A stretch of 35,825 bases of DNA from Thiobacillaceae bacterium (lineage in GTDB: Bacteria; Pseudomonadota; Gammaproteobacteria; Burkholderiales; Thiobacillaceae): positions 1 through 35,825 of the forward strand of contig JALOTG010000044.1 in NCBI GenBank assembly GCA_025458005.1. Direction: 5' to 3'. Position 1 is the stretch's first letter. Every line of letters begins with the position of its first letter. This document shows positions 2,764-33,112 of the stretch, in pieces. Under the pieces are notes generated by a model. It was not told the DNA's origin. It made no database searches and was given only the letters and a program-made list of their open reading frames with translations. Both the position numbers and the translations under genes were made by a program.

Positions 2764-3357
2764 TCAGGCGGGCCGCCCAGGTCCGAAGCGCTCCAGCCAG
2801 AGCAGCCCCATCACCGTCTTGCCCTCGCAGATGCGACCGTCGCGCACCATCTCCAGGGCCTCGGCCAGCGGCAGGCGCAGGATCTCCAGGAACTCGTCGT
2901 GGTCGAGGTCGTCGCCGACGTGCCGCAGCCCCGTCGCCAGGTAGTACACCAGCCGCTCGTCCGAGTAGCCGATGCAGGGATAGAAGGTGGCCAGGTAGCG
3001 CCATTCCGCCGCCGCGTAGCCGGTCTCCTCCAGCAGCTCGCGCTGGGCGCAGGCCAGCTCGGTCTCGTCGGGGTCGAACTTGCCGGCCGGCAGCTCGATG
3101 AAGTCCCGGCGCAGGGGATAGCGGTGCTGCCGCTCCAGCAGCACGTCGCCGTTGTCGAACCGGGGGATGACCACCGCCGCGCCGGGGTGGACCAGGTATT
3201 CGCGGGTGGACTCCTGGCCGTTGGGCAGCCGCACCCGATCCCGCTTGGCGTGCAGCAGGCGGCCCTGGTAGACGGTTTCGGAGGACAGGGGGTGTTCGGT
3301 GAGGTCGGGCGCGGCCATGGGGGAAGGCGGGGAAGCGGGCGGGGGGGTGTGGTTCAC
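2764..3357 (-). CDS. Nudix hydrolase, ADP-ribose pyrophosphatase type
   Basis: Predicted cytoplasmic pyrophosphohydrolase of the ADP-sugar group. The complete Nudix box G-x5-E-x7-REUxEExGU is visible as GKFDPDETELACAQRELLEE followed by TGY, at about residues 92-114. The flanking IELPAG and the downstream FYPCIGYSDE loop fit NudF-like ADP-ribose pyrophosphatases. The GTG start at 3357 has a GGGGA stretch five bases upstream; an internal ATG at 3318 (MAAPDL) is possible but lacks a good ribosome site. The proline-rich first 15 residues would be unusual, which supports the shorter form. It lies about 200 bp upstream of ppdK on the same strand and could be cotranscribed. The exact substrate cannot be told from sequence. 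Confidence 0.9.
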   Translation of the reverse strand: MNHTPPPASPPSPMAAPDLTEHPLSSETVYQGRLLHAKRDRVRLPNGQESTREYLVHPGAAVVIPRFDNGDVLLERQHRYPLRRDFIELPAGKFDPDETELACAQRELLEETGYAAAEWRYLATFYPCIGYSDERLVYYLATGLRHVGDDLDHDEFLEILRLPLAEALEMVRDGRICEGKTVMGLLWLERFGPGRPA

Positions 3358-3399
3358 TTTTCCCCGACAGTATAGACCGGCTTGCCGATGCTTTTATTG

Positions 3400-3413
3400 C
3401 CGACAGGTGTCGG
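3400..3413. promoter_or_regulatory. 14-bp palindrome upstream of trpB2
   Basis: The sequence CCGACA-GG-TGTCGG is an inverted repeat with 6-bp arms, ending 46 bases before the chosen trpB2 start. It lies in the short gap between the divergent Nudix gene and trpB2, so it could be an operator for either. No matching regulator is identified. Confidence 0.35.
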
Positions 3414-3459
3414 TTAGCATGAGCCCCCCGCCAGGCGTGCCATGCAAGGAGACCCCGAA

Positions 3460-4833
3460 ATGCCCGAAACCAAGATCATCCTGGAAGAAAAAGACATCCC
3501 CACCCACTGGTACAACGTGGTGGCGGACATGCCCAACAAGCCGCTGCCGCCGCTGGGTCCGGACGGCAAGCCGGTGGGACCGGACAAGATGGGCGCCATC
3601 TTCCCCATGAACATCCTCGAGCAGGAGATGAGCGCCGAGCGCTGGATCCCGATCCCCGAGCCGGTGCGGGAGATCTACCGGCTGTGGCGGCCCTCGCCCC
3701 TGTTCCGCGCCCACCGCCTGGAGGCGGCCCTGGGCACCCCGGCCAAGATCTACTACAAGTACGAGGGCGTCTCCCCGGCCGGCTCGCACAAGCCCAACTC
3801 CGCCGTGCCCCAGGCCTGGTTCAACAAGCAGGCCGGCATCAACCGCCTGACCACCGAGACCGGCGCCGGCCAGTGGGGCTGCAGCCTGTCCCTGGCCGGA
3901 CAGATGTTCGGCATGGAGATCCGCGTCTACATGGTGAAGGTGAGCTACCAGCAGAAGCCCTTCCGCCGTTCCATGATGCAGACCTGGGGCGCCGAGGTGT
4001 TCGCCAGCCCCACCGACATGACCCATGCCGGCCGCGCCATCCTCGCCCAGGATCCGGACAACCAGGGCAGCCTGGGCATCGCCATCTCCGAGGCGGTGGA
4101 GGAAGCGGCCAGCCGCGCCGACACCAACTACGCCCTGGGCTCGGTCCTCAACCACGTGCTGTTGCACCAGACCATCATCGGCCAGGAGGCCAAGAAGCAG
4201 TTCGAGAAGGTGGGCGACTACCCGGACATGATCTTCGCCCCCTGCGGCGGCGGCTGCAATTTCGCCGGCGTGTCCTTCCCCTTCTTCGCCGACAAGGCGG
4301 CCGGCGACAAGCGCGCCCAGAACCTGCGCTTCGTGGCGGTGGAGCCCAGCTCCTGCCCGACCCTGACCAAGGGCGTCTACGCCTACGACTTCGGCGACGC
4401 CTCCGGCTACACGCCGCTGATGAAGATGTACACCCTGGGCCACGATTTCATGCCACCCGGCATCCACGCCGGCGGCCTGCGCTACCACGGCGACTCGCCG
4501 CTGATCTCCCAGCTCTACCACGAGAAGCTGATCGAGGCGGTGGCCGTGCCCCAGGTGGCCACCTTCGAGGCCGGCGTGCAGTTCGCCCGCGCCGAGGGCA
4601 TCGTCCCCGCGCCGGAGTCCTGCCACGCCATCCGCGCCGCCATCGACGAAGCCCTGCGCTGCAAGCAGACGGGCGAGCCGAAGACCCTGCTCATCAACCT
4701 GTCCGGCCACGGCCACTTCGACATGGCCTCCTACGACAAGTACCTGGCCGGCGAGCTGACCGACTACGAGTATCCCGAGCACGAGATCCAGGCCGCGCTG
4801 GAGCGCTTGCCCAAGGTGGCGGAGCCGGCCTGA
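3460..4833 (+). CDS. trpB: Tryptophan synthase beta chain, TrpB2 type
   Basis: PLP-dependent TrpB-like enzyme of the TrpB2 (COG1350) branch, which typically makes tryptophan from indole and serine, often without a TrpA partner nearby. About 457 residues. TrpB2 marks are the extended N-terminus with GRPSPL-like [13 protein letters not shown], the PLP-lysine region [17 protein letters not shown], and a long insert before the TETGAGQWG loop. The phosphate-binding glycine loop reads CGGGCNFAG, where GGGSNFAG is usual, so a Cys replaces the Ser. The ATG at 3460 is preferred over 3442 because AAGGAG lies eight bases before it. No other trp genes are adjacent. It is convergent with the downstream ferritin-like gene. 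Confidence 0.95.
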
Positions 4834-4855
4834 CCGCAAGCCGCGGACCTGGAAC

Positions 4856-4882
4856 GGCCGCGCGACGCGCGGCCTCTTCCTT
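4856..4882 (+). terminator. Likely terminator after trpB2
   Basis: GGCCGCGCG-A-CGCGCGGCC is a perfect inverted repeat, followed by the pyrimidine-rich tract TCTTCCTT. It sits 22 bases after the trpB2 stop and before the convergent operon end at 4954. The T tract is weak. Confidence 0.5.
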
Positions 4883-4953
4883 GGCCGGGCTGACGCCGCT
4901 CGACCGGGCTGATGCGGCCCGGGCGCACGGCGCGCGTCGTCGCTGCGGAACGG

Positions 4954-5454
4954 CTAGACGCCGCCGCTGTGGACCGTGTCGTAATAGATCTTCTCCAGTT
5001 CCAGCTTGTGCTGGGTCTCCTCGCTGGCCAGGTAGCGGAACAGGTCACGGATGGGGCCTTCCGGCGCCGTTTCGGCCAGTTCGCCGTAGTGCGTCATGGC
5101 CGCGTGCTCCCGGCCCATGGCGTACTGCAATACGGTCTGGTCGTCCGGGTTCTCCCCCAGGTCCGGCAGGTGCAGGCAGTCGGAGAACTTGCTGTCGCTG
5201 GCGGTGCGCTGGATTTCCTCCTTCACCTGATCAGCGATGTCCGCGCGCCGGGCCAGGGCGTTGAACAGGTCGTAGTGCCGCTGCTCCTCCGCGGCCAGTT
5301 CCTCCACCAGGTAGCGGATGCGCTTGCTGACCCTGGGGATCAGGGCCGCGTAGAAATCCCGGGCGCTGGCCTCGAAGCCGGTGGCCACTTCCAGGATTTC
5401 CCGCAGGGTGGTCTTGCCGCGCAGGCGGTCGATTGCGTGGGTACCTTCGGTCAT
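4954..5454 (-). CDS. Ferritin-like (rubrerythrin-type) diiron protein
   Basis: A 166-residue four-helix protein with two ferritin-like half motifs. The first is FEASARDFYAAL followed by AAEEQRHYDLF. The second is GREHAAMTHYGELAE followed by SEETQHKLELEK. These supply the Glu and ExxH ligands of a diiron site. There is no rubredoxin domain and no signal peptide, so a cytoplasmic protein is expected. It starts MTEGTHAIDRL; its ATG overlaps the stop of the upstream NuoI-GltD fusion gene (ATGA), so translation is probably coupled. It is the last gene of the Mbx/MBS-like operon. Rubrerythrin relatives usually act in peroxide reduction or iron handling. A link to the complex's oxygen or sulfur chemistry is my inference from position only. 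The longer ORF start at 5622 is spurious. Confidence 0.85.
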   Translation of the reverse strand: MTEGTHAIDRLRGKTTLREILEVATGFEASARDFYAALIPRVSKRIRYLVEELAAEEQRHYDLFNALARRADIADQVKEEIQRTASDSKFSDCLHLPDLGENPDDQTVLQYAMGREHAAMTHYGELAETAPEGPIRDLFRYLASEETQHKLELEKIYYDTVHSGGV

Positions 5455-7250
5455 TTCGCCATCTCCACAGGCATCAGGACGGCATGCACGCTGGCGGCCA
5501 CCCGATGGCCGTCGGCCACCGCGTGCACCACGTCGGGGCCGGCCACGCAGTCTCCCGCCGCCCACAGCCAGGGCGCCGAGGTGCGGCCGTCGGCGTCGAT
5601 CTTCAGGCGGCCCCGGTTCCATTCCAGTTGTTCGGTCAGGGCCTCGCCCAGCAGGGAGGTGTCGGCGAACTGGCCGATGGCCTCGATCACCGTGTCGCAG
5701 GCGTGGATGGTTTCCTGGCCGTCGTCGTAGCGGGGCGCGAAGCGCTTGTTCTCGTCGAAGATGGACAGCACCTTCCAGGTCTTCAGGCCGATGAGCTTGC
5801 CCCGGGCGTCGATCTCGCAGCCCTGGGGACCGCAGTTGTCCCGGATGACGATGCCCTCTTCCAGGGCCTCCTTGATCTCGTCCGGGTCGGCCAGGAAGTG
5901 CTGCTGGTCCTCCAGGGCGGTGACCACCACGTCCACCTGGCCGTACTGCACCTTCTGCTTGCGGGCGAGCGACCGGGCGATGTCCATGGCCACGTTGCCG
6001 CCGCCGATGACCACGGCACAGTGGGGCAGATCGAAGGGTTCATTGGCGGCGATCCTGCGCAGCAGGTCGACGGCCCGATAGACCTTCTCGTGCTCGGAAT
6101 GGGGGATGCGGGTCTGCCGGCCCTGTTGCAGGCCGATGGCCAACACCACCGCGTCAAAGGTCTGGCGGAGTTCATCCAGGGTCTTGTCCACGCCGATGCG
6201 GCAGTTGTATTCGATCTTCACCCCCATGGACGCGATGACCGCCACGTCCCGGTCCAGGGCGTCATAGGGCAGGCGGTATTCGGGGATGCCATAGCGGGTC
6301 ATGCCGCCGGCCGCGGCCTCGGCCTCGAACACCGTGACGGCGTGGCCCATCCGCGCCAGATCGAAGGCGGCGGTGAGGCCCGCCGGGCCGGCGCCGATGA
6401 TGGCCACCCGCTTGCCCGTGGCCGGGCCGGGGCCGCCGATGAGGTCCGGGATACGGTCGAAGGGCACCTGATCCACGATGTGGCGTTTCAGCCAGCGGAT
6501 GGCGATGGGGTCCCCTTCGTGGCGGGCGGCGCAGGCGTCCTCGCACTTGTGGGTGCAGACCCGGCCGCACACGTGTGAGAAGGGGTTGGTCTCGTAGAGC
6601 AGCCTCAGGCCGCGCTCGTAGTCCCCGTCGCGGATGGCGGCGATGTACTGGGGTACCGCCATGTGGGTGGGGCAGGTGGCCACGCACAGGCCGCAGGCCA
6701 CGCAGCGGTCCGCCTCCAGGGCGGCCTCTTCCCGGGTGTAGCCGTGCACGATCTCCCGGAAGTTGTCGATGCGGTCTTCCGGGGGCATTTCCCCCATGGG
6801 GATGCGGTACTGGCCGGTGAGGCGGTGGCCTTCGGGGCGTCGGTAGCCCAGCTCGAGGGTGTTCCATTCCAGCCTGTCCACGCCCGGGGTAAAGCGGAAG
6901 GCGTCCGGGTCGCTTTCCACCCACGCGTAGGCGTTGGACATGGTCAGCGACTGGGTCATGCACACGTCCACACACAGGGCGCACCAGCAGCAGCGGCCGT
7001 AGTCGATGCGGGGGCGCAGGCCGGAATCTCCGGGTTTGGTCTCGATGCCCGTCACCGGCAGCATGTCGATGGCGCCGTTTTGGCAGATGGTCTCGCAGGT
7101 GCCGCAGCCAATGCACTTGGCCATGTCGTTCTGGTGGAAGCCGCGATAGCGGGGGGCGGCCTCCCGGTTCAGCGGGTCCGCGATGGACACCGGGTCGCGG
7201 AACAGGTGCTTCCAGGCGGTGAAGGGGGAAAGAAGGTCCTTGACGCTCAT
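5451..7250 (-). CDS. NuoI-like ferredoxin fused to GltD/NfnL-like NAD(P)H:FAD oxidoreductase
   Basis: A 599-residue fusion, starting MSVKDLLSPFTAW two bases after the nuoD-like stop. Residues of about 40-120 form a two-cluster ferredoxin like NuoI/MbxN, with CIGCGTCETICQNGAI and CCWCALCVDVC. From about 190 follows the N-terminal Fe-S domain of the glutamate synthase small subunit family, with CVACGLCVATCP and HVCGRVCTHKCEDAC. Then come the FAD Rossmann motif VAIIGAGPAGLTAAFDLARM, the second dinucleotide motif VVIGGGNVAMDIARSLA (pyridine nucleotide), and the closing WLWAAGDCVAG. The NuoI part should pass electrons to the NuoB-like subunit. The GltD-like part should oxidise or reduce NAD(P)H, replacing NuoEFG, none of which is present. 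Whether NADH or NADPH is used, and the direction, cannot be read from the sequence. Confidence 0.9.
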   Translation of the reverse strand: MSVKDLLSPFTAWKHLFRDPVSIADPLNREAAPRYRGFHQNDMAKCIGCGTCETICQNGAIDMLPVTGIETKPGDSGLRPRIDYGRCCWCALCVDVCMTQSLTMSNAYAWVESDPDAFRFTPGVDRLEWNTLELGYRRPEGHRLTGQYRIPMGEMPPEDRIDNFREIVHGYTREEAALEADRCVACGLCVATCPTHMAVPQYIAAIRDGDYERGLRLLYETNPFSHVCGRVCTHKCEDACAARHEGDPIAIRWLKRHIVDQVPFDRIPDLIGGPGPATGKRVAIIGAGPAGLTAAFDLARMGHAVTVFEAEAAAGGMTRYGIPEYRLPYDALDRDVAVIASMGVKIEYNCRIGVDKTLDELRQTFDAVVLAIGLQQGRQTRIPHSEHEKVYRAVDLLRRIAANEPFDLPHCAVVIGGGNVAMDIARSLARKQKVQYGQVDVVVTALEDQQHFLADPDEIKEALEEGIVIRDNCGPQGCEIDARGKLIGLKTWKVLSIFDENKRFAPRYDDGQETIHACDTVIEAIGQFADTSLLGEALTEQLEWNRGRLKIDADGRTSAPWLWAAGDCVAGPDVVHAVADGHRVAASVHAVLMPVEMAK

Positions 7251-7252
7251 GG

Positions 7253-8428
7253 CTATCGTTCGATCTCGGGCGGATAGGTGTGCAGGGACACCATCAGCGC
7301 GGCCACGTCGGAGATGTTGAGCCCCACGATCATGCGCTCCAGCAGGGCCATGGCGTGGGTGTAGGAGGGGCCGCGCACGTTGACCCGGCGCGGGTAGCCG
7401 CTGCCGTCGGTGACCAGGTAGTAGCCGTACTCGCCCCGCGAGCACTCCCCCCGCAGGTAGGTCTCGCCGCGGGGGATCCGCCAGTGCAGCATGCTGGGCA
7501 TGGGGGCCATGACCGGGCCGTCCTGGGGCATGCGCGCCAGGATCTGGCGGATCAGGTCCACGGACACCAGCACGTCCCGGCGGCGCACGTCGGCCCGCGT
7601 GTAGATGTCCGAGTCGTGGCCGATGACGGGCTCGAAGTCCAGCTGTGGGTAGACCAGGTAGGGGGCGTCCCGGCGCACGTCCTTGGCCACCCCGGCGGCC
7701 CGGGCGTTGGGGCCGGTGACGCCGTATTCGTCCAGCCAGGCGGGGTCGATGATGCCCTGCCCCACGCTGCGCCGCTTGAACACGGCGTTGCGGAACATCA
7801 CGTCCGAAACGTCCTTCAGGGTGCGCTCCACCTCCCGCAGGGTCTCTTCCATGCGGCCTTCGAAGCCCTCGGGCAGCTGGTCCCGCACGCCGCCTGGCAG
7901 GATGAACATGTGGTAGATGCGGGCGCCGGTCATCTCCTCGAAGCGGTCCAGCATCAGGTCGCGGGCATAGGTGGTCCACTGGCCGATGACGCCCAGGCCG
8001 ATGGCGCCGGCCTGCCCCCCCAGGTACATGAGATAGCTGTTGATGCGGCCCATCTCCAGGATCAGGGCGCGTATCCAATGGGCCTTCTCCGGCACCTCCA
8101 CGCCGGCGAGTTCCTCCACCGCCGCCGCGTAGCAGTATTCGTTGAAATCCGGCTCCGGTACGCAGATGCGGCAGACGATGGGGAAGCACTGGATGAAGGT
8201 GCGCCGCTCCATGAGCTTCTCGAAGCCCCGGTGCAGGTAGCCCACGTGGGTCTTGCCCGCCACCACCTCGTCGCCGCAGACGGTCAGTTCCACCGACATG
8301 TTGCCGGTGATGCCCGGGTGGTTGGGGCCCTGCCAGAGCTTCAGGTACTTGCCCGAGGCGAGGTCGATGTCCAGGCTGCCGTCGGGCTTCCTGGCCGGGT
8401 ATTGGGAGCGGTCGGGGGTGTAGGCCAT
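7253..8428 (-). CDS. NuoD/[NiFe]-hydrogenase large subunit-like protein (MbxL/MbsL type)
   Basis: A 391-residue homologue of complex I NuoD and of group 4 hydrogenase large subunits, expected in the cytoplasmic arm. Family marks are GPNHPGITGNMSVEL, HVGYLHRGFEKLMERRT and GVEVPEKAHWIRALILEMGR. The N-terminal metal motif is partly kept as VCRICVPEPDFNEY (Cys86, Cys89), but the usual His after it is absent. The C-terminus reads VGLNISDVAALMVSLHTYPP and has no CxxC, so a NiFe site is not expected. This pattern fits the Mbx/MBS and Ehr groups and excludes a true hydrogenase. The ATG lies one base from the stop of the upstream nuoC-like gene. Confidence 0.92.
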   Translation of the reverse strand: MAYTPDRSQYPARKPDGSLDIDLASGKYLKLWQGPNHPGITGNMSVELTVCGDEVVAGKTHVGYLHRGFEKLMERRTFIQCFPIVCRICVPEPDFNEYCYAAAVEELAGVEVPEKAHWIRALILEMGRINSYLMYLGGQAGAIGLGVIGQWTTYARDLMLDRFEEMTGARIYHMFILPGGVRDQLPEGFEGRMEETLREVERTLKDVSDVMFRNAVFKRRSVGQGIIDPAWLDEYGVTGPNARAAGVAKDVRRDAPYLVYPQLDFEPVIGHDSDIYTRADVRRRDVLVSVDLIRQILARMPQDGPVMAPMPSMLHWRIPRGETYLRGECSRGEYGYYLVTDGSGYPRRVNVRGPSYTHAMALLERMIVGLNISDVAALMVSLHTYPPEIER

Positions 8429-8429: not shown

Positions 8430-8972
8430 TCAGCCCTTGCCCGGATAGAGCTGCTGCTTCATGTGGCTCTCGGGGTCGCGAGTTTCCCGCCCGGGCCGCT
8501 GGGCGTAGCTGTCCTGGGCGTACTGCAGGGTGTCGAAGTCGCGCCGGTAGGGGGGGATGTCGTTCCAGCCCTCCAGGATGAATTCCTCGTACACGCCGGG
8601 GCTGTCCGGGAAGTCGATGCCGAACATCTCCCGCAGCTCCCGCTGGTAGGTGGCCGCCGTGGGCCAGAGGTCGTGGATGCTGGCCATCACGGTGCCCAGC
8701 CGAGGCAGCATGACGCGCAGGCCGATGTCCCGGTTCTCGGCGCGGTTGGAGAGCAGGTAGGTGAGCTGGAACTGCCCCTGCTCGATCCAGTCCACCGCCG
8801 TCAGCAGCACCAGGTGGGTAAAGCCCTCCCGGTCCCGCAGGTGCAACAGGGCCGGCCGCAGGTATGCCCCGGGCAGGGTGACGAAGGCCAGATTGGATCT
8901 TTGCTCCGTGAACTCGCCCACGGGGAACAGGGCCTTCAGGCGGTCGTAGAGTGCGTGCATAGCATCGTTCAC
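8430..8972 (-). CDS. NuoC-like 30 kDa subunit (MbxK type)
   Basis: A NuoC/HycE-N-like subunit of the peripheral arm, about 177-180 residues. Recognisable parts are GFTHLVLLTAVDWIEQGQFQ, then SIHDLWPTAATYQRELREMF and GIDFPDSPGVYEEFILEGW, which match the conserved NuoC end before PPYRRDF. I chose the GTG at 8972 because it overlaps the nuoB-like stop as GTGA, the same junction seen elsewhere in this operon. The ATG at 8960 (MHALYDRLKALF) is equally possible and neither has a strong ribosome site. The ORF track extends the frame to 9446, but that part is a shadow of the nuoB-like gene. Confidence 0.88.
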   Translation of the reverse strand: MNDAMHALYDRLKALFPVGEFTEQRSNLAFVTLPGAYLRPALLHLRDREGFTHLVLLTAVDWIEQGQFQLTYLLSNRAENRDIGLRVMLPRLGTVMASIHDLWPTAATYQRELREMFGIDFPDSPGVYEEFILEGWNDIPPYRRDFDTLQYAQDSYAQRPGRETRDPESHMKQQLYPGKG

Positions 8973-9634
8973 CAGTTGTAGTCCGGCATGTCCCAGTCGT
9001 GGATCACCTGCTTCTGGTTGGCCTTGTACCAGGTGAAGTTCTCCGCGTAGCGGTTGGCGCCTTCCGCCTGGCCGGCGCGGATCAGCTTCTTCAAATCCTC
9101 GAAGCCCTGCAGCAGGGCCTCCGGGCGGGGCATGCAGCCGGTGATGTAGAGGTCCACGGGCAGGTACTGGTCGAGGCACTTGATGGTGTTGTAGGAATCC
9201 CAGTACATGCCGCCATTGATGGTGCAGGAGCCCAGGCCGACGACGTATTTCGGGTTCTGCATCTGCTCGTAGGCGCGGATGGCCCGCTTCAGGGTCTTGG
9301 TGGAGAGATAGCCGGAGATCACCAGCAGATTGGCCTGGCGCGCCGTGGGCCGCCACTGGATGCCGTAGCGGTAGGCGTCGAAGCGGGGCGTCATCAGGGG
9401 GCGCATCTCGATGGCGCCGCAGCCGGTGCCGAAGCCGAGGATCCACAGGGACTGGGCGCGGGCCCAGTTGAAGAAGTCCTCGACGATCTTCAGGTAGGCG
9501 CCGTGCTGCACCGTGGGCGGGGCGTCGCAGAAGTAGTCCCTGAGGGGCTCCACCTCGAATTCCACGCCGTCCGGCCCCTTCACCTTGCGGGGCATCAGCT
9601 CGGGTTTGATGAAATGCATCGGGTCGCGCTTCAT
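8969..9634 (-). CDS. NuoB-like [4Fe-4S] subunit with only three cluster cysteines (MbxJ/MbsJ type)
   Basis: A 221-residue homologue of NuoB and the hydrogenase small subunit. It carries the cluster that in complex I is N2. The first motif reads FGTGCGAIEM (Cys72), where complex I has two adjacent cysteines (CCAIE) and hydrogenases have CxxC. I checked the bases: the codons are TGC GGC. The other two ligand positions are kept, GLGSCTING (Cys137) and YITGCMPRPEAL (Cys167). Extra cysteines at 36 and 153 lie outside the usual motifs. A three-cysteine cluster leaves one iron open, which is what was proposed for catalysis in Pyrococcus MBS. The ATG is nine bases from the nuoH-like stop. Confidence 0.92.
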   Translation of the reverse strand: MKRDPMHFIKPELMPRKVKGPDGVEFEVEPLRDYFCDAPPTVQHGAYLKIVEDFFNWARAQSLWILGFGTGCGAIEMRPLMTPRFDAYRYGIQWRPTARQANLLVISGYLSTKTLKRAIRAYEQMQNPKYVVGLGSCTINGGMYWDSYNTIKCLDQYLPVDLYITGCMPRPEALLQGFEDLKKLIRAGQAEGANRYAENFTWYKANQKQVIHDWDMPDYNW

Positions 9635-9643: not shown

Positions 9644-10549
9644 TCACACCAGCAGGATGGCCAGCACGCCGAGGGGCACGGCCCAGACCAGGAACCAGCG
9701 GATGGACTGCTCCACCCGGAAGCGGGGGAAGACCACCCCCACGAACACCGAGACCAGGTAGATGCAGAACACCTTGAGGAAGAACACCGGCCAAGTGGCC
9801 GCGCCGCCGAAGAACAGGTTCATGTAGACCACGATCTTGGCGATGGGGAAGATGGCCCGGTTGGTCTGCATCAGGGCCAGGTAGGAGGAGTGGTACTCGG
9901 TGGGCGGGCCGATGGGTATCTCCTGGGGCGCCAGCACCACGTCGAAGGGCGGCCGCATCATGGAGCCGAGGAAGGCGAGCATGGCCGCCGCCACGGCGAG
10001 CGGGTTGGTGAACAGGGTCCAGTTTTCCACGCCGCCCTGCTGGGCGGCGACGATGTCGGTGATGGACAGGGTCTGGTACTGGAGCGCCACCGCGAACACC
10101 GCCAGGGCGAAGGGCAGTTCGGCGGCGGTGACCTGGGCCAGGCCCCGGCTGACGCCGATGGCCGCGTGGGGATGGCCGCTCTCCCCCGCCCCCAGGGCCA
10201 TGCCCAGGGTGCCGAAGAAGACGAAGTAGAGGGCCAGGATCAGGTCGCCGGCGAACGACAGGTTGGAGAACATCTCCGAGCCGTAAATCGTGGGCACGAA
10301 CAGCAGCAGGCCCACCCCGCCGGAGAGGCGGAACACCGGGCCCAGGTAGAACATGACGCCGTGGGTGATGGAGGTGCGCAGGCCGTAGTTCTTGATCAGG
10401 TCGGCGTAGTTCTGCCAGATGGGCACGCCGTGGCGGCGCCCCACCCGCGCGGCGATCTTCTGCATCAAGGCGCCCAGCAGCATGCCGTAGTTCACCACGA
10501 TGAACAGGGTCAGCAGGGCGTAGGGGATCTTGATCCACTCGAATGCCAT
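9644..10549 (-). CDS. NuoH-like membrane subunit (MbxM type)
   Basis: A 301-residue integral membrane protein with about eight hydrophobic segments, homologous to NuoH and HycD/MbhM. It joins the peripheral arm to the antiporter arm. Visible family marks are MQKIAARVGRRHGVPIWQNY followed by ADLIKNYG, the acidic loop GESGHPHAAIGVSRGLAQVT with the following AAELPFALAVF, and the loop RPPFDVVLAPQEIPIGPPTE. The loop spacing is closer to hydrogenase-type than to canonical NuoH. It begins four bases after the fused antiporter gene stops, which implies cotranslation. Length is normal for the family and no break is visible. Confidence 0.93.
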   Translation of the reverse strand: MAFEWIKIPYALLTLFIVVNYGMLLGALMQKIAARVGRRHGVPIWQNYADLIKNYGLRTSITHGVMFYLGPVFRLSGGVGLLLFVPTIYGSEMFSNLSFAGDLILALYFVFFGTLGMALGAGESGHPHAAIGVSRGLAQVTAAELPFALAVFAVALQYQTLSITDIVAAQQGGVENWTLFTNPLAVAAAMLAFLGSMMRPPFDVVLAPQEIPIGPPTEYHSSYLALMQTNRAIFPIAKIVVYMNLFFGGAATWPVFFLKVFCIYLVSVFVGVVFPRFRVEQSIRWFLVWAVPLGVLAILLV

Positions 10550-10553: not shown

Positions 10554-13500
10554 TCAGGCCCCCATGCCGATGAAGAAGGCGATGATGACGAAGGCCAGGA
10601 GGTGGAAGGCGTAGGTCTGGCCGTTGCCGTCGTAGAGCCGCCGTCCCAGGTCCCCCGCCGTGTGCAGCAGGTCGGTCACCGCCCCCCAGAAGTTCGTCGC
10701 CAAGGGCTGGGTCAGGAAACCCAGGGCCTTGCGGTAGGGGGCGAAGAAGTTCCAGGCGAAGTGGGTGGTCTCGGGCCGGTAGGGGCGCTCGGCCGAGAAC
10801 ACGATGTTGAACTGCTTCACCATCTGGGCGCGGCGGTTCACGAACAGCAGCCAGAGGAAGAGGGTCGTGAAGATCACGCCGACGACGATCATGATGGCGA
10901 TGGGGTCCCAGTAGCCGTACTGGCTGGTGATCTGCCCGCCCTCCCAGCGCAGGCCGCCGTCGGGGAAGAACCGGTCGAGGTAGGCGTCCACCTGGCGCAA
11001 GGCCAGGCCGGGCACCAGGGCGAACACCAGCAACAGGGCCACGTAGATCATCTGCGGCAGCACGATCCAGAAGGGCGCCTCCTTCACCCGTCTGAGCTCG
11101 TCCTTCAGCTGGCCCAGGAAGATGGTGTAGATGAGCCGGAACAGGTACAGGAAGGCCACCGGCCCGGCGAGGAAGAGGACCACGATGGGCAGGCGGGTCT
11201 CGCTGTCCATGATGGCGTTGTAGAAGATCCAGCGTCCGCCGAAGCCGGACAGCGGCGGCACGCCGGAGAGGGCGATGATGCCGATGAGCACGGCGATGAA
11301 GGACAGGGGCATGAGCCGGATCAGCCCGCCCATGCGGTACATCTCGCGGGTGCCGGTGCGCTTGGCCACGCCGCCCACGGCCAGGAACAGCATGGACTTG
11401 TAGATGTAGTGGTTGATGACGAACACCAGGGCCATGAGCCAGCCCAGGTGGTTCATCAGCGCCAGGCCGAACATGGCGTAGCCCATCTGGCCGATGGAGG
11501 AATAGGCCAGCAGGCGCTTGGCGTCTTCCTGGAACACCGCCATCAGGTTGCCCAGCAGGGCGGTGAGGGCGGCCACCCAGAGCAGGGCGTGGGTCAGCTC
11601 CACGCCATGGAGCTGCTGCTTGCCCATGGCCAGCAGCAGGACCATGAGTCCGTAGAGCCCCGCCTTCAGCAGGATGCCCGACACCATGGGGGAGACGTCC
11701 GTCTCCGCCTCGGCATGGGCGCCCGGCAGCCAGATGTGCACGCCGATGGCGGCGGTCTTGGTCATGAAGCCGATGGCCAGCAGCAGGAACACCCAGGGGG
11801 CCGCGGGCGCGGCTACCTGGGCCAGGGACGCCAGGTCGAGCTGGAGCGCGCCGGTGGCCGCGAGGTCGAGCCGTGGCACGGCGGCCGCCGCGATGGCGAA
11901 GCCCGCCAGGATCAGGAAGGCGCCGCCCAGGGAGAACAGGATGTAGGACAGGGCATGGGGCTCGGACGCCTTGCCGCGCAGGATCAGGAAGTAGGAGCCC
12001 ACCGTGAGCAGCTCCCAGGCGGCGAAGAACTCGAAGGCGGACGTGGCCTGGATCAGCATCACCATGCCGGCGTACATGAGCATGGCCGCCGGATAGAAGC
12101 CGATGCGCCGGCCGTGGGCGTGGTAGCTGGCCAGCAGGGTGAGGGCGCCGCCGATGAGGAAGATGATGGCGAAGATGAGCCGCATGGGGTCGTACTCGCC
12201 CCAGGTCATGATGAAGTAGGCCACCAGGCCGGCGATGGCCAGGGTGTTCTTGATCCAGGCGGGCAGCCAGTCCAGCAGCAGGAAGGCCAGGGCAAACAGC
12301 AGCGGCAGGGCCAGCAGCAGGTTGACGCGCCCGAACAGGTCGCCCCACAGCCAGGCCAGGGCCCAGCCCGCCGCCAGGGCGGCCAGCACGGGCACGAGCT
12401 TGTGGGGTGTGCAGGGCGCGGTCTCCCCTCCCGGGGCTTCCCGCTTCAGGAGGTAGCCGAACCAGCGGAACAGGTAACCGGCCTCGATCAGCGCGCCCAG
12501 CAGGACCAGGGCCAGCAGGACCAGGCGGTCCGCGCCGGCCAGGTGGTGCACCAGTTCCCACTTGGCGTAGAAGCCGGGGAAGGGGGGCAGGCCCGTGAGC
12601 ATGGCCATGAAGGTGGCGAAGGCGAACACCAGCAGGGGGCGTCTGCCCAGCGCCGCCCAGTCCGTCAGTCGCCGCTCCTGCACCAGCCCCGAGAGCCAGT
12701 ACAGGCCCGCCTTGGCCACGGCGTGCGAGACGAGCAGGCCGAAGGCGATGAAGGGGGTGGCCTCGCCCAGGATGTCCCGCTGGCCCAGCACCATCAGCAC
12801 CAGGCCGGTCTGGGCCACGGAGGAGTAGCCCAGCAGGCGGCGGTCATGGGTCTGGGGCAGGGCCAGGAGGTTGGCGGCAATGAAGGTGACGATGCCGATG
12901 GCCGTGGCCATCGGCAGCCAGGCGTCGCCGCCGATGAGCAGCAGCTTGTCCGCGGCGTAGAGGACCGCGGCGCCGGTGGCGGCGGAGAACAGGGCGGAGA
13001 AGGCGGGGGGGGCCGACTCGTAGATGTCCAGGGCCCAGCCGTTGGCCGGGAAGGGCTTCAGCTCGGACACGACGGCGATGAACATGAGGAAGAAGGCCAG
13101 GGCCGCGACGTTCGCCAGCCCCGCCTCGGCCATGCCGTCGATGTTCAGGGTGCCGGTGGCGTGGTAGGCGAAGATGATGCCGACGAGCAGGAACACCGAG
13201 ATGAACTGGGACACCACCAGGTACTTGAAGCCGGCCCCCAGGGCCAGGCCCGGCCGGTGGGTGTCGGACAGCAGCACCAGGCCGGCGGTGGAGATGACGG
13301 CCAGCTCCAGGAACACGAACAGGTTGAACATGTCCCGGGTAAGGATGATGCCGCCCAGTGCCATGACCGCCACCAGCAGCACGGCCATGGCGCGCCTGCC
13401 CTGGTTCAGCAGCACATCCTTGAGATGAATGGCCGAGAGCAGGCCGGTCAGGTTCACCAGCAGGGTCAGGGCGGCCTCCGGCAGGCCGAAGCGCAGGTTG

Positions 13501-13736
13501 ATGGCGAAGGGCGGCGGCGTGCCGGCGGTGAGGATCTCCACCGGGGCGGCCCCTTGCAGGACGAAGGCCCACAGCCAACGGGCCGGAATCCAGGCCATCC
13601 AGGCCAGGGCGACCAGGGTCAGTCCGTAGGCAACCCCGCTCTGCCGGGGATGCAGCAGCCCGAGCAGGAAGGCGGCGCCCAGGCCCGTGGCAAGGATGAG
13701 GAGGGGGCTCAGCAACAGGCCGTCCACGCCGCTCAC
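10554..13736 (-). CDS. Double antiporter-like subunit: MrpD/NuoN-like half fused to NuoL/MrpA-like half
   Basis: One open frame of 1060 residues holds two complete antiporter-like modules. Module 1 (about 1-480) has FVFLELAVIS (TM5 Glu), VVSELKPFPANGWALDIYES (TM7 Lys) and LLVSHAVAKAGLYWLSG (TM12 Lys). Module 2 (about 490-1060) has FAAWELLTVGSYF (TM5 Glu), GFMTKTAAIGVHIWLPGAHA, SGILLKAGLYGLM, LLAYSSIGQMGYAMFG and VINHYIYKSMLFLAVGG. It ends in a long C-terminal extension as in NuoL/MbhH types. In Pyrococcus Mbx/MBS these are separate H and H' proteins; complex I also keeps them separate. The GTG start at 13736 overlaps the mrpC stop (GTGA). The 150 extra residues in the ORF track are a shadow of mrpC. 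Confidence 0.9.
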   Translation of the reverse strand: MSGVDGLLLSPLLILATGLGAAFLLGLLHPRQSGVAYGLTLVALAWMAWIPARWLWAFVLQGAAPVEILTAGTPPPFAINLRFGLPEAALTLLVNLTGLLSAIHLKDVLLNQGRRAMAVLLVAVMALGGIILTRDMFNLFVFLELAVISTAGLVLLSDTHRPGLALGAGFKYLVVSQFISVFLLVGIIFAYHATGTLNIDGMAEAGLANVAALAFFLMFIAVVSELKPFPANGWALDIYESAPPAFSALFSAATGAAVLYAADKLLLIGGDAWLPMATAIGIVTFIAANLLALPQTHDRRLLGYSSVAQTGLVLMVLGQRDILGEATPFIAFGLLVSHAVAKAGLYWLSGLVQERRLTDWAALGRRPLLVFAFATFMAMLTGLPPFPGFYAKWELVHHLAGADRLVLLALVLLGALIEAGYLFRWFGYLLKREAPGGETAPCTPHKLVPVLAALAAGWALAWLWGDLFGRVNLLLALPLLFALAFLLLDWLPAWIKNTLAIAGLVAYFIMTWGEYDPMRLIFAIIFLIGGALTLLASYHAHGRRIGFYPAAMLMYAGMVMLIQATSAFEFFAAWELLTVGSYFLILRGKASEPHALSYILFSLGGAFLILAGFAIAAAAVPRLDLAATGALQLDLASLAQVAAPAAPWVFLLLAIGFMTKTAAIGVHIWLPGAHAEAETDVSPMVSGILLKAGLYGLMVLLLAMGKQQLHGVELTHALLWVAALTALLGNLMAVFQEDAKRLLAYSSIGQMGYAMFGLALMNHLGWLMALVFVINHYIYKSMLFLAVGGVAKRTGTREMYRMGGLIRLMPLSFIAVLIGIIALSGVPPLSGFGGRWIFYNAIMDSETRLPIVVLFLAGPVAFLYLFRLIYTIFLGQLKDELRRVKEAPFWIVLPQMIYVALLLVFALVPGLALRQVDAYLDRFFPDGGLRWEGGQITSQYGYWDPIAIMIVVGVIFTTLFLWLLFVNRRAQMVKQFNIVFSAERPYRPETTHFAWNFFAPYRKALGFLTQPLATNFWGAVTDLLHTAGDLGRRLYDGNGQTYAFHLLAFVIIAFFIGMGA

Positions 13737-14098
13737 CCCTTCAGCTCCGTGAACCGGCCGATGTCCAGCGTGCGCTTCTGGCTGTACAGCCGCAGGGCGT
13801 AGGCCAGCATCAGGGCGGTGATCCCCACGCCGATGACGATGGCGGTGAGCACCAGGGCCTGGGGCAGGGGGTCGATGATGCGGGCCGCGGCATCGCTGGC
13901 GGCCAGGGTGGCGTCCAGGATGGGGGCCGTGCGCCCGTGCATATAGCCGATGGAGACGATGACGACGTTCACCCCCGTGCCGGCCACGGTGAAGGCGACG
14001 ATCATGCGCAGCAGGTTGCGGCGGGTGAGGGCGCCGTAGAAGCCGATGAGAATCAGCAGGAAGCCGGTGGCCATGGCCAGTTGGGCGATGCCGGGCAT
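13733..14098 (-). CDS. mrpC: MrpC/NuoK-like antiporter subunit
   Basis: A 121-residue membrane protein with three hydrophobic helices, of the MrpC/MnhC (NuoK-like, MbxG) family. Visible are GFYGALTRRNLLRMIVAFTV, then GTGVNVVIVSIGYM, and the helix-3 stretch DPLPQALVLTAIVIGVGITA, which is the conserved family signature. In the Mrp antiporter and in complex I this subunit forms part of the proton path. The ATG at 14098 overlaps the upstream stop as TGATG; a GTG at 14101 would give GTGA. The last bases overlap the start of the fused antiporter gene. Confidence 0.93.
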   Translation of the reverse strand: MPGIAQLAMATGFLLILIGFYGALTRRNLLRMIVAFTVAGTGVNVVIVSIGYMHGRTAPILDATLAASDAAARIIDPLPQALVLTAIVIGVGITALMLAYALRLYSQKRTLDIGRFTELKG

Positions 14099-14811
14099 CA
14101 CGCTTCCTCGCGCGTTTCAGCGTCCGTCTCGGCGAGGCTGACCAGCATGGAGGACACCTCCGCGCCCACCTTGAGGCCGATGAGGACATAGATCAGGGGG
14201 ATGGCGCCGGCGGAGAACAACGCCCCCAGGGCGCCGGTGGGCAGGATGCGGTTGTCCAGGAAACCGCCCGCCAGGATCAGGCCCAGCAGGCCGATGAGCA
14301 CGTAGACGACGCCGGCGACGGATTCCACGGCGGCGATCAGGCGATGACCGAATCGCCGCAGCGGATCGGCCAGCAGGAGCAGCAGCGTGCCGGAGGCGAT
14401 GATGGCGCCGCCCTGGAAACCACCGCCCGGGGTCAGGTGGCCGTTGACGAAGACATAGACGCCCAGCAGCAGGATCAGCGGCGCCAGGTAGCGGCTGCCG
14501 GTGGTGAGCAGCTCCCCCACCGGCACCCGGCCCCGGGCGGGGGTGCCGGATTGACCGCCCTGGGACAGCACCAGGCCCACGATGGTGGCGGCCAGGAACA
14601 GCACCGTGACCTCGCCCAGGGTGTCCAGGCCCCGGTAGGTGACGATGATGGCGGTGACGATGTTGGCCGCCCCCAGGTCCTGGGCGGTACGCTGGGCGTA
14701 GTAGCGGGCGGTCTGGTTCAGTTCGGCGTCCGGCGCGTAGGTCGCGAGCAGAACCGCGAACAGGCCGCCGACCGCCAGCACCAGCACCAGGGCGATGAAG
14801 CGCTTAACCAT
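14098..14811 (-). CDS. mrpB: MbhE-like plus MrpB domain protein (MbxE-F type)
   Basis: A 237-residue membrane protein that joins two usually distinct Mrp pieces. The first 85 residues hold QDLGAANIVTAIIVTYRGLD followed by TLGEVTVLFLAA, the MbhE/MrpA-C-terminal (NuoJ-like) signature. After a linker rich in Gly and Pro, residues of about 105-225 hold an MrpB domain: SRYLAPLILLLGVYVFVNGH and LTPGGGFQGGAIIASGTLLL. It overlaps the preceding DUF4040 gene by eight bases. The charged tail ETDAETREEA is cytoplasmic by prediction. Confidence 0.9.
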   Translation of the reverse strand: MVKRFIALVLVLAVGGLFAVLLATYAPDAELNQTARYYAQRTAQDLGAANIVTAIIVTYRGLDTLGEVTVLFLAATIVGLVLSQGGQSGTPARGRVPVGELLTTGSRYLAPLILLLGVYVFVNGHLTPGGGFQGGAIIASGTLLLLLADPLRRFGHRLIAAVESVAGVVYVLIGLLGLILAGGFLDNRILPTGALGALFSAGAIPLIYVLIGLKVGAEVSSMLVSLAETDAETREEA

Positions 14812-15106
14812 CCTCGCCTCCCTTCGTTTCGGACTGGCTCCGGATGCGGCCCAGCACGAAGAAGAACAGGAAGGTGGTGAGACCGCTGCCGATGGCCGCC
14901 TCGGTCATGGCCACGTCAGGCGCCGCCAGCACCAGGAACAGCACCGAGGCCAGCAGGCTCACCAGGCCGGCGGCGAGGATGGCGATGGGCAGCCCGCTCG
15001 TGTCGGTCTGCGCCTCCTCGGCGCCGGGCTCGCCGATCGCCAGCAGGGCGGCGCCGAGCATGGCGACGCACAGCACCCCGGTCATGGCGGTCATCAGGTT
15101 GCCCAT
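14804..15106 (-). CDS. DUF4040/MbhD-like Mrp subunit
   Basis: A 100-residue membrane protein equal to the DUF4040 part of MrpA, as in MbhD/MbxD. The signature LAAPDVAMTEAAIGSGLTTF is clear. Three hydrophobic segments are predicted. The ATG at 15106 overlaps the mrpG stop as TGATG; a GTG three bases earlier is possible. The ORF track start at 15259 is a shadow of mrpG. A full-length MrpA is not present; its functions appear split between this gene, the MbhE-like domain and the second antiporter module. Confidence 0.88.
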   Translation of the reverse strand: MGNLMTAMTGVLCVAMLGAALLAIGEPGAEEAQTDTSGLPIAILAAGLVSLLASVLFLVLAAPDVAMTEAAIGSGLTTFLFFFVLGRIRSQSETKGGEDG

Positions 15107-15444
15107 CACGCCTCCCCCCGGTCTTCCGACAGCCGGTCCACGCTGGTGAGAGACGACTTGACCGTGCCGGCCCGATGGGCCGCCCGGGCCAGCACCTGGG
15201 ACGAGATGGGGTTGGTGAACAGGATGAACAGGCCGATGAGCAGCAGTTTCAGCCCCCACTCGGGGTGCAGGCAGGCGGCCCCCGCCAGGCCCAGCAGGGT
15301 GCCCAGGGTGGTGGCCTTGGTGCCCGCCTGGATGCGGTTGAACAGGTCGGGCATGCGCACCAGACCCAGGCCGCCCAGCAGCAGGAAGACCGCGCCAGCC
15401 ACAAGCAGCAGCGCGCCCAGGAGATGCAAGGGGGTGTCAGTCAA
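15106..15444 (-). CDS. mrpG: MrpG-family antiporter subunit
   Basis: A 112-residue MrpG/MnhG protein (MbxC type) with three hydrophobic helices. The family block GGLGLVRMPDLFNRIQAGTK followed by ATTLGTLLGLAG is intact, as is the third-helix LFILFTNPISSQVLARAAHR. It begins inside the end of mrpF, with a 4-base overlap. It is expected in the membrane arm of the complex. Confidence 0.94.
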   Translation of the reverse strand: MTDTPLHLLGALLLVAGAVFLLLGGLGLVRMPDLFNRIQAGTKATTLGTLLGLAGAACLHPEWGLKLLLIGLFILFTNPISSQVLARAAHRAGTVKSSLTSVDRLSEDRGEA

Positions 15445-15701
15445 AGGCCCCGCTCCAGGTAGCGGGCGATGACGATCACCCCCAGGAAGGACAGCAGGGC
15501 ATAGACCAGCGCCACGTCCAGGTAGATGCCGCGCCCCTCGGCAATGGCGGCCAGGACGATGCCGGTGATGCCGACGATGGTGAGCACGTCGAAAGCCACC
15601 ACCCGGTCGCCGGGCGACGGCCCCCTGAGGAAGCGGACCAGGGCCAGCAGCAGGGCCAGTCCGGCCAGGGCCGCCGCCAGCTGGATCAGCGTTTCAGCCA
15701 T
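15441..15701 (-). CDS. mrpF: MrpF-family antiporter subunit
   Basis: An 86-residue MrpF/MnhF protein (MbxB type) with three hydrophobic helices. Family marks are LVRFLRGPSPGDRVVAFDVL and LDVALVYALLSFLGVIVIAR. It starts within the last bases of mrpE (15694) and overlaps mrpG by four bases, so the whole Mrp block is tightly packed and probably cotranslated. Confidence 0.94.
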   Translation of the reverse strand: MAETLIQLAAALAGLALLLALVRFLRGPSPGDRVVAFDVLTIVGITGIVLAAIAEGRGIYLDVALVYALLSFLGVIVIARYLERGL

Positions 15702-16106
15702 ACATGACCTCCAGGTAGCGCTCGAAGCCGGACACGATGCGGGCCGTGGCGGTTTCGATGTCTTCCGACTCCACGTTCACCCAGTGGATGTAGAGCCACT
15801 CGCCGTCCATCTCCACGGTGAGGGTGCCGGGGGTGAGGGTGATGGAGTTGGGCCCGCCAGGCGCAGGTTGGACTTGACCAGTTCCCTGAGGAAGTAGGCC
15901 ACGTAGACCGGCGCCGTGAGAAGTGCCCGGGGCGTGAAGCGGAATTCCGAGACCACCGACAGGCCGCCGCTGAACAGCAGGGTGATGACCAGGGCCGCGA
16001 CCACCCCCACCAGGAGGACGTCCGCGGCCAGGGAGCCGTTCAGCAGCAGCCACAGCCCCAGCAGGGTGGCGAACAGCATGGCCGACTCGCGCGCCCCGGC
16101 CATCAT
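15694..16106 (-). pseudogene. mrpE: mrpE, internally deleted and frameshifted
   Basis: MrpE (MbxA type) is the first subunit gene of the operon. The N-terminal half is in one frame, from ATG 16106: LLGLWLLLNGSLAADVLLVG through VYVAYFLRELVKSNLRLAG. The C-terminal half is in another frame and ends at 15694: NSITLTPGTLTVEMDGEWLY to YLEVMYG. In intact MrpE proteins roughly 30 residues separate KSNL from the ITLTPGTL block, so about 90 bases appear lost near 15850-15862, with a frame change. As written no single protein contains both halves. The flanking genes are intact and in tight coupling, which makes an assembly or sequencing error a serious alternative to real loss. Confidence 0.8.
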
Positions 16107-16553: not shown

Positions 16554-17612
16554 TTACTCGAGAACGCGCAGCTCGACGCGACGGTTCTGGGCGCGCCCGT
16601 CGGCCGTGGCGTTGTCCGCGATCGGGCTGGACTCGCCATAGCCCTTGGCGGTCAGTCGGGCGGCGGCGATGCCCTGGGACACGAAGTAGTCCATCACGGC
16701 CTTGGCGCGACGTTCGGACAGCGGCTGGTTGTAGGCCTCCTCGTTGACGCTGTCGGTGTGACCGGCCACCTCCACCTTGAGGGCGGGATAGCGCTTCAGG
16801 GTCGCCACCGCGTCGTCCAGGATGGGTTTGGCGTCGTCGCGGATCACGTCGGCGTCGAAGTCGAAGTTCACCCCCTTGAGGATGATACTGCTGGTCAGGG
16901 TGCAGCCCTTGCTGTCCACCTTGTCGCCCCTCGGCGTGTCGGGGCACTGGTCGAGGCCGTCCACCACGCCGTCGCCGTCGCTGTCCAGCTCGCAACCGTT
17001 GGCGTCCACCTTGCGGCCGGGCGGGGTGCCCGGGCAACGGTCGAGGCGATCCACCACGCCATCGCCGTCGCTGTCCAGCTCGCAGCCCTGGGCGTTCACC
17101 TTGGCGCCCCTGGGCGTGTCGGGGCACTTGTCGAGGGCATCGACGACGCCGTCGCCGTCGCTGTCCGGTTCGCAACCCTGGGCGTCCACCTTGCGGCCGG
17201 CGGGGGTGTCCGGACAGCGGTCCAGGCGATCCACCACCCCGTCGCCGTCGCTGTCCAGCTCGCAGCCGCTGGCGTCCACCTTGGCGCCCGCCGGGGTGTT
17301 GGGACACTTGTCCTTGTCGTCGGTCACCCCGTCGCCGTCGCTGTCCTGGGGCGCGGCCTTCACGGGGGCGGCCTTCACGGGGGCGGCGGGGGCGGGTACC
17401 GGGCATTCCCTGCCCAGCAGTTCCCGACCCGGACAGCCGATGGTCCTGTAAAGCTCGTAGCCGCTGGTGAATCCGCTGCCGCTGGCGGCGTTGGCGGGGT
17501 CGTAGAAGCGTGCCTCCTGCGCCTGGACACTGATCGCCGCGGTGGCGAGGAACGCCGCGCCGAGGGCGCCAAGGACGGTCAGACGAGAGGGGGGGCGGGA
17601 TTTCTGCAGCAT
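16554..17612 (-). CDS. OmpA-family protein with five thrombospondin type 3 repeats
   Basis: A 352-residue outer-membrane or periplasmic protein. The start MLQKSRPPSRLTVLGALGAA has AGGAG seven bases upstream; a signal peptide ends near AAISVQAQ. A short N-terminal segment (YELYRTIGCPGRELLGREC) and a Pro/Ala linker follow. Next are five 30-residue units of the form DSDGDGVVDRLDRCPDTPAG, which are Asp-rich calcium-binding type 3 repeats. The C-terminus is an OmpA-like peptidoglycan-binding domain, with GVNFDFDADVI, VEVAGHTDSVNEEAYNQPLS and the RRVEL end. There is no evident full N-terminal beta-barrel; it is more like a linker protein tethering the outer membrane to peptidoglycan. The longer ORF start at 17732 lacks support. 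Confidence 0.92.
   Translation of the reverse strand: MLQKSRPPSRLTVLGALGAAFLATAAISVQAQEARFYDPANAASGSGFTSGYELYRTIGCPGRELLGRECPVPAPAAPVKAAPVKAAPQDSDGDGVTDDKDKCPNTPAGAKVDASGCELDSDGDGVVDRLDRCPDTPAGRKVDAQGCEPDSDGDGVVDALDKCPDTPRGAKVNAQGCELDSDGDGVVDRLDRCPGTPPGRKVDANGCELDSDGDGVVDGLDQCPDTPRGDKVDSKGCTLTSSIILKGVNFDFDADVIRDDAKPILDDAVATLKRYPALKVEVAGHTDSVNEEAYNQPLSERRAKAVMDYFVSQGIAAARLTAKGYGESSPIADNATADGRAQNRRVELRVLE
16896..17345 (-). repeat. Five tandem 90-bp coding repeats (thrombospondin type 3)
   Basis: Exactly 450 bp, five units of 90 bp, encoding D-S-D-G-D-G-V repeats ending in GCEL/GCEP/GCTL. Units 2 and 4 (both DRLDRCP) are most alike, which suggests duplication of a two-unit block. Copy number could vary by slippage or be miscounted in assembly. 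Confidence 0.9.
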
Positions 17613-17764
17613 GGTTGTTCTCCTGGGTAAGGAAGTAAGGGACGACGGTAGCATCTCGGCTCTCACCGCCCGGCGGATGCCTTGGCGGAGGCCAGGAAAG
17701 GCGTGGTCACAGTCACGATCGGTGCCCGACACTCATGTCCAGTGGAGTGACCTGGGACAAGGAC

Positions 17765-32544: not shown

Positions 32545-32587
32545 TTGATGGCCATCAAGGAATCCCTCTTTGGTGGTTCAGTACCAT
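32545..32587 (+). promoter_or_regulatory. FNR/ANR-type site and class II promoter ahead of fccAB
   Basis: TTGAT-GGCC-ATCAA at 32545-32558 is a perfect match to the FNR consensus TTGAT-N4-ATCAA. A TACCAT -10 lies at 32582-32587. A start near 32593 would put the site centre at about -41.5, the class II FNR position. The fccA ATG follows at 32658. Confidence 0.7.
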
Positions 32588-32657
32588 ATGTCGGACTGCG
32601 GCCAGGTACGGATGGCTCCACCATGGTCGTGCAGTGACTTTTTGTCTGGAGGAGAGC

Positions 32658-33102
32658 ATGCACAAAGTGCACCAAGGCATTGCGACGGCGATGACCGCCG
32701 TGGGCCTGATGCTGGCTGGCCTGGCCCAGGCCGCGCCGAATATCGAGGGACTGGCGCGCACCTGCAACAACTGCCACGGCACGGGCGGGGTGAGCGTGGG
32801 CACATCGATGCCCTCGATCGCCGGGCTGTCGGAGGCCTACCTGAAGCACATCATGATGGAATGGAAGAGCGGCGCGCGCGCCTCGGCCAACATGACGCGC
32901 CTGATCAAGGGCTACACCGACGAGGAGATCGCCGGCCTGGCCGCCTACTACGCCAAGCTGCCCTGGACGCCGCAGCCGCAGAAGGTGGGCGCGGACATCC
33001 TGGCCAAGGGCAAGGAGGCCACCGAGGATCAACAACGCCCGCAAGATGGACGCGGGCAACGTGCCCGTCGCCGCCGAGTTCTACGGCGCGCAAGGCAAGT
33101 AA
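32658..33102 (+). pseudogene. fccA: fccA, sulfide dehydrogenase cytochrome subunit, internally deleted and frameshifted
   Basis: Periplasmic cytochrome c partner of FccB. The N-terminal domain from ATG 32658 (GGAGGAG upstream) has a signal peptide ending AQAAP, heme motif CNNCHG and axial Met region, then GYTDEEIAGLAAYYAKLPWT and AKGKEATE. At about 33027 the frame changes. The other frame gives INNARKMDAGNVPVAAEFYG and AQGK then TAA, resembling the C-terminal helix of FccA. The block between, which in diheme FccA carries the second CxxCH, is absent. As written only one heme motif remains and the C-terminus is scrambled (EDQQRPQDGRG). fccB directly follows and is intact, so an assembly gap is a real alternative. 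Confidence 0.75.
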
Positions 33103-33112
33103 GGGAAAGAGC

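Follow-up and report, generated by a model that had tools for sequence, protein, structure and literature searches.

An operon in which a NuoI-type ferredoxin is fused to an NfnL/GltD-type flavoprotein, and which, judging by sequence matches and motifs, builds a complex whose core is of the MBS (sulfane reductase) type rather than the hydrogenase or complex I type, was found in a stretch of 35,825 nucleotides from a Thiobacillaceae bacterium (hereafter the window). We consider it reasonably likely that this is a complex of the MBS type that carries an NADH site of its own, in which electrons would run from NADH over FAD and four clusters to an open NuoB cluster, with sulfane chemistry there coupled to ions. 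If so, NADH would meet an MBS-type complex at a built-in site, without recourse to NuoEFG or to free ferredoxin, and in a mostly proteobacterial set of sulfur bacteria NADH would be linked, with energy coupling, to the pool of sulfane sulfur.

The fusion protein and its operon

Listed from upstream to downstream, all on one strand, the operon consists of the following genes.

15694-16106, minus strand: mrpE, MrpE-like gene, broken in this assembly (compared with relatives, it lacks about 30 codons and changes frame)
15441-15701, minus strand: mrpF, MrpF-like subunit (sequence reading and conserved position)
15106-15444, minus strand: mrpG, MrpG-like subunit (sequence reading and conserved position)
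14804-15106, minus strand: mbhD, MbhD-like subunit (profile match)
14098-14811, minus strand: mbhE-mnhB, MbhE and MnhB (MrpB) subunit (profile match)
13733-14101, minus strand: mrpC, MrpC/NuoK-like subunit (profile match)
10554-13727, minus strand: joined antiporters, two antiporter-like subunits (MbsH/H' type) in one 1057-residue ORF (two Proton_antipo_M stretches; GTG start at 13727 assumed)
9644-10549, minus strand: nuoH, NuoH/MbsM-like membrane subunit (profile and solved-structure match)
8969-9634, minus strand: nuoB, NuoB/MbsJ-like subunit (three-Cys proximal cluster: TGCG, SC..NGG, GCMPRPE)
8430-8960, minus strand: nuoC, NuoC/MbsK-like subunit (profile match)
7253-8428, minus strand: nuoD, NuoD/MbsL-like large subunit (profile match and motif reading)
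5451-7250, minus strand: fusion gene (ATG at 7250, stop ending at 5451; single open frame, 599 residues)
4954-5454, minus strand: rubrerythrin-like ferritin protein, 166 residues, without a rubredoxin domain

The fusion starts directly 3' of nuoD, whose stop ends at 7253, and its end overlaps the rubrerythrin-like gene (5454). The initial annotation had described a NuoI-type ferredoxin and a GltD/NfnL-like flavoprotein in one frame at 5451-7250, and the ORF, Pfam and NCBIfam analyses agree exactly with both its coordinates and its description. The protein opens with a NuoI/MbsN-like domain for two [4Fe-4S] clusters (residues ~1-118; ligands Cys46, 49, 52, 56, 87, 90, 93 and 97), followed by a linker, a Fer4_20 domain for two more [4Fe-4S] clusters (Cys183, 186, 189, 193, 228, 232, 236 and 240), and NfnL/GltD-type FAD and NAD domains beginning at residues 280 and 416, the latter with the motif GGGNVAMD. 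Pfam matched Fer4_7 at 45-100 (5e-12), Fer4_20 at 160-261 (8e-29) and Pyr_redox_2 at 281-577 (2e-29), while the NCBIfam NuoI models covered 5-110 (2e-26) and the gltA/GltD models 156-591 (1e-82). The whole-fusion model NF010590/PRK13984 spans residues 2-593 (model positions 7-607 of 611) with 837 bits against a curated cut-off of 946, which is passed by one relative (G066, 1000 bits). An AlphaFold model of the fusion reached a mean pLDDT of 84.5 and a pTM of 0.82, and its GltD part superposed on P. furiosus NfnL (5jca/5vj7) with a target-normalized TM score of 0.87-0.88.

Since 24 intact full-length sequences from different genomes, 40-84% identical to the window protein, align over their full length, an assembly join, an artefact or a chance fusion is ruled out. 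In this alignment none of the fusion's 16 cluster cysteines varies, a set that would suffice for four [4Fe-4S] clusters, and the FAD and GGGNxA NAD motifs are invariant or nearly so. The E/EExxH-type ligand residues of the rubrerythrin-like protein likewise align in relatives.

ORF reading and profile search revealed no nuoEFG genes in the operon, and an Mrp-type membrane module with two antiporter-like subunits is present, as in MBS/MBX. The claim that this Mbx-type operon brings its own nicotinamide-nucleotide site instead of NuoEFG is thus upheld. The antiporter subunits form one continuous match also in L007, L008, L010, L013, L015, L052-L055, L057, L070 and L071, and separate matches in L012, L014, L016, L017, L058, L069, L072, L073 and L075. 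In the window's mrpE the N-terminal 84 residues lie in one frame and the C-terminal part in another, through either an assembly error or a real loss. Upstream of the operon, beside mscL, lies a gene for an OmpA-family protein with thrombospondin type 3 repeats (16554-17732, minus strand).

In NfnL/GltD enzymes the second strand of the NADP domain ends in YRR(T/S)xxEM, whose arginines bind the 2'-phosphate. At this position the window fusion reads ALEDQQHF (within TALEDQQHF), and across the family alignment the arginines give way to an acidic or uncharged residue in nearly every relative; YRRR is kept in one member alone (L070, Bacteroidota phylum). Because the residues for the NADPH phosphate are replaced by A-L-E in nearly all members, NADH would be the likelier nucleotide for most of the family, and NADPH is suggested for L070. 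Of the NAD(P)H site initially proposed, the nicotinamide-nucleotide site itself therefore holds, on a GltD/NfnL-type domain, and NADPH becomes the less likely substrate.

Assignment of the core to the MBS type

Among solved structures, P. furiosus MBS (6u8y) is the best match for NuoB (7e-63 versus 6e-38), NuoD (2e-91 versus 5e-62), NuoH (1.5e-39 versus 1e-12) and the NuoI part of the fusion (1e-22 versus 1e-11; closest to MbsN), the margin being some ten orders of magnitude or larger in every case. More importantly, the proximal cluster of NuoB, aligned to MbsJ, is held by three cysteines (T[GA]CG / SC..NGG / GCMPRPE) in 24/24 NuoB sequences, a single cysteine standing in the window protein where complex I has the N2 tandem cysteines. 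The window NuoD shares the MBS motif RICVPEPD with MbsL, and a motif of this type is found across the family; the CxxC pairs of the NiFe site are absent from it. Tyr87 and His38 of Thermus NuoD, the quinone residues of complex I, correspond by our assignment from an ungapped alignment to 2fug_4 to Val and Thr in the window, and these positions are not conserved in the family.

The MBS-type assignment rests on these matches taken together with the three-Cys NuoB, the RICVPEPD motif and the loss of NiFe and quinone ligands. An ordinary complex I and a group 4 [NiFe] hydrogenase (Mbh) were ruled out on the active-site residues of NuoB and NuoD. The initial annotation had spoken of an Mbx-like enzyme, which is right for the operon; the subunit B, D, H and I matches and motifs narrow it to the MBS type. 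Two cysteines near the MBS site, the equivalents of C25 and C385, are missing from members with joined antiporters (type A); both are reportedly dispensable in MBS. The open three-Cys cluster itself is the site at which MBS was shown to reduce polysulfide (PMC7684303).

Distribution, sulfur context and apparent module exchange

A genome scan recovered 13 fusions. By phylum, the fusion occurred in 6/398 sampled Pseudomonadota, 2/296 Bacteroidota genomes (phylum of L015), 2/145 Omnitrophota (phylum of L022), 2/3 Mcinerneyibacteriota (phylum of L017), and 1/297 and 3/299 genomes of the phyla of L021 and L025, respectively. Among the controls, Thermotoga maritima encodes a protein that passes the cut-off of NF010590. 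The family to which the window belongs, which includes Parasulfuritortus, has the fusion in 7 of 37 genomes, one copy being cut by a contig end.

In every locus whose upstream side could be read (27/27), an MBS-type NuoD lies directly upstream of the fusion. The search for the domain pair, with neighbouring genes recorded, yielded a single candidate for a fusion without Mbx genes, L074 (G1384, Omnitrophota phylum), where the fusion sits on another contig than an MBS-type nuoHBCD set; in that genome no NuoI gene was found after the NuoD of the MBS-type operon. The candidate was accordingly dropped, and its layout fits a fusion acting in trans. The association with Mbx-like genes, which the initial annotation had exposed to refutation by just such relatives, therefore survives. 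In the L074 locus (2815-6185, minus strand), the fusion adjoins a gene reading as formate-tetrahydrofolate ligase.

Directly 3' of the fusion, a rubrerythrin-like gene was present in 18/18 Pseudomonadota loci where this side is visible; none was detected in the six loci examined from other phyla. In one Salinivirgaceae locus (L015), its place is taken by a dihydroorotate dehydrogenase-like gene (11796-12776, plus strand).

Five of the six sampled Pseudomonadota carriers encode dsrA, versus a background of 51/398 (hypergeometric p 1.6e-4, ignoring ancestry). The sixth is the draft genome of the window itself, 90% complete, in which dsrA was not found. As dsrA is common in the window's family with or without the fusion, it does not discriminate there and was dropped as a marker within the family. 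About 26 kb from the fusion, the window carries a gene for a flavoprotein of the flavocytochrome c sulfide dehydrogenase type (32570-34492, plus strand); the Pfam FCSD match begins at ORF residue ~216, and the true start is probably near 33.2 kb. In a locus from another phylum (L069, 962-3117, minus strand), a CoA-disulfide-reductase-like flavoprotein and a thioredoxin follow the fusion, an arrangement reminiscent of the Pyrococcus NSR. In T. maritima, mbxA rises 4.4-fold with S0 (PMC9431562). A complex type otherwise run by ferredoxin could here exchange electrons directly with NADH instead, with a probable link to sulfur oxidation.

Two core types carry the fusion in Pseudomonadota: in type A, to which the window belongs, the antiporters are joined, and in type B (L012, L014, L016, L058) they are separate. 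The type B NuoD is only ~45% identical to that of the window, and both types occur within one genus (G014, G003). Along the fusion, identity between the window and the type B member L012 runs at 38, 52 and 20% through the NuoI half and linker, and at 88, 92 and 84% through the NAD domain, where a type A Thiothrix reaches a lower 62, 70 and 60%. For the rubrerythrin gene the figure is 77%. The trees agree in topology with an exchange of modules, and the AU tests of clades are mixed: for NuoD, grouping type B with betaproteobacterial type A was rejected (p 3e-52); for the whole fusion, type A as a clade that excludes B was only just rejected (p 0.04); and for the GltD part such a clade was not rejected (p 0.5), the best tree joining A and B with 100/100 support. 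We read the exchange mainly from the identity profile, which is clearer than these tests. The flavoprotein half and the rubrerythrin gene were thus apparently transferred onto the type B core in one lineage. With the same flavoprotein half on two MBS-type cores in one bacterial family, the swapping of electron-input modules in respiratory complexes becomes testable.

Proposed mechanism and comparison with known systems

From the domain make-up, the operon, the MBS-type site, the conservation of wire ligands and the co-occurrence, all established here, we infer an electron path, a substrate, a preference for NADH and a coupling. NADH would exchange hydride with the NfnL-type FAD in the C-terminal half of the fusion, and electrons would pass through the two Fer4_20 [4Fe-4S] clusters and the two of the NuoI domain to the three-Cys cluster of NuoB. 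At this open cluster sulfane sulfur (polysulfide or persulfide) would be cleaved or, in the backward direction, sulfide oxidized, and this chemistry would be coupled to the passage of ions through NuoH and the Mrp/antiporter arm. A sulfane substrate is suggested by homology to one characterised archaeal enzyme. The rubrerythrin-like neighbour of Pseudomonadota would probably shield the open, oxygen-labile cluster from oxygen or peroxide.

Textbook potentials are -320 mV for NAD+/NADH and about -260 to -270 mV for polysulfide or S0/HS-. Towards sulfide, the resulting gap of ~50-60 mV yields only ~10 kJ/mol for each electron pair and so does not pay for a single ion at 150 mV; a pump moving at least one ion per pair would tend to run backwards under such conditions and make NADH, a direction suited to autotrophic sulfur oxidisers. 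For the forward direction this is little for an ion pump, and it counts against our preferred explanation, as do the loss of the C25 and C385 equivalents in type A, the broken mrpE of the window, and the distribution of dsrA in the window's family and draft genome. In sulfur-oxidising Pseudomonadota the complex could mainly reduce NAD+, driven by the ion gradient, and in fermenters and sulfur reducers run towards sulfide; on these energetic grounds we put the chances of such a division at about even. In fermenters the same complex may run forwards perhaps with help from ferredoxin. A more specific proposal, tentative and on balance doubtful, is that sulfur-oxidising Pseudomonadota use it as an ion-gradient-driven, quinone-independent sulfide (or persulfide):NAD+ oxidoreductase that would supply NADH for biosynthesis from reduced sulfur, its NADH head being an exchangeable cassette on the MBS core.

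Three other functions were weighed against a sulfane-directed electron path. An ion-coupled ferredoxin:NAD+ oxidoreductase analogous to Rnf, in which ferredoxin would dock on the NuoI domain and NAD(H) bind to the GltD domain, with coupling by the membrane arm, seems unlikely. Such an exchange is the old proposal for the Pyrococcus Mbx. It would suit a NuoI domain closest to MbsN, the subunit beside which ferredoxin would dock, and in the Riftia symbiont the network neighbours of the Mrp-Mbx genes are shared with the rTCA cycle, which requires ferredoxin (PMC11636981). Yet the exchange would then take place upstream of the NuoB cluster. Electrons would not reach the cavity whose chemistry, in this superfamily, drives pumping, and the open three-Cys cluster, though conserved, would be left without a job. 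Ferredoxin may nevertheless serve as an extra electron input.

That the flavin bifurcates, sending NAD(P)H electrons partly into the MBS arm and partly to ferredoxin or some other partner, is suggested by its nearest fold, the large subunit of bifurcating Nfn, and by the retention of both Fer4_20 clusters. We regard it as improbable, for the operon contains no NfnS-like partner gene, and plain glutamate synthase has a GltD of this very fold that is not known to bifurcate. More improbable still is an NADH:quinone oxidoreductase with a GltD-type head replacing NuoEFG. The overall homology to complex I and the many carriers from respiring bacterial groups would accommodate one; the altered quinone positions of NuoD, the single cysteine at N2 and a NuoH far closer to MBS than to complex I speak against it.

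The preferred reading, an NADH-linked MBS-type complex, sets the window beside several known systems. It shares with MBS/MBX of P. furiosus (6u8y; PMC7684303) the Mrp-type, NuoH, B, C, D and I parts, the three-Cys cluster, RICVPEPD and the lack of NiFe ligands. It differs in the fusion of NuoI to an NfnL/GltD flavoprotein, the joined antiporter subunits and the rubrerythrin-like neighbour. There is no separate MbsN subunit; its counterpart is confined to the N-terminal part of the fusion, and for this reason we prefer the name "MBS-type with fused head" to plain MBS. The initial statement that the Pyrococcus NAD(P)H link is through separate proteins reflects an older Fd:NADP+ proposal and has been superseded, MBS now being described as ferredoxin-dependent and NSR as a separate enzyme (PMC7684303, PMC9431562). 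The MBX of T. maritima is an MBS homologue induced by S0, in a genome that encodes a fusion-type protein, and differs in being treated as ferredoxin-dependent (PMC9431562). Going by a table in PMC2246101, T. petrophila seems to lack TM1205-1216 (mbx) and to retain TM1217, which is relevant if TM1217 is the fusion. Candidatus Endoriftia is a proteobacterial sulfur oxidiser with an Mrp-Mbx complex, mentioned in passing in PMC11636981, with no fusion described in the text examined.

The open-access literature searched gave no description of a NuoI-GltD or Mbx-GltD fusion or of an NADH-linked MBS. The fusion is not wholly new all the same: its parts are known, the whole is modelled as the "putative oxidoreductase" NF010590/PRK13984 with no function assigned, and a T. 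maritima member exists. The "distinct self-contained class" of the initial annotation is accordingly retained as a probably NADH-headed MBS-type variant and given up as something wholly unseen. With NfnL/GltD (5jca, 4ylf, 6s6s) the fusion shares the fold, the FAD motif, two [4Fe-4S] clusters and the NAD domain; it departs from them in the acidic A-L-E at the YRR position and in pairing with a membrane complex where they pair with NfnS or GltB.
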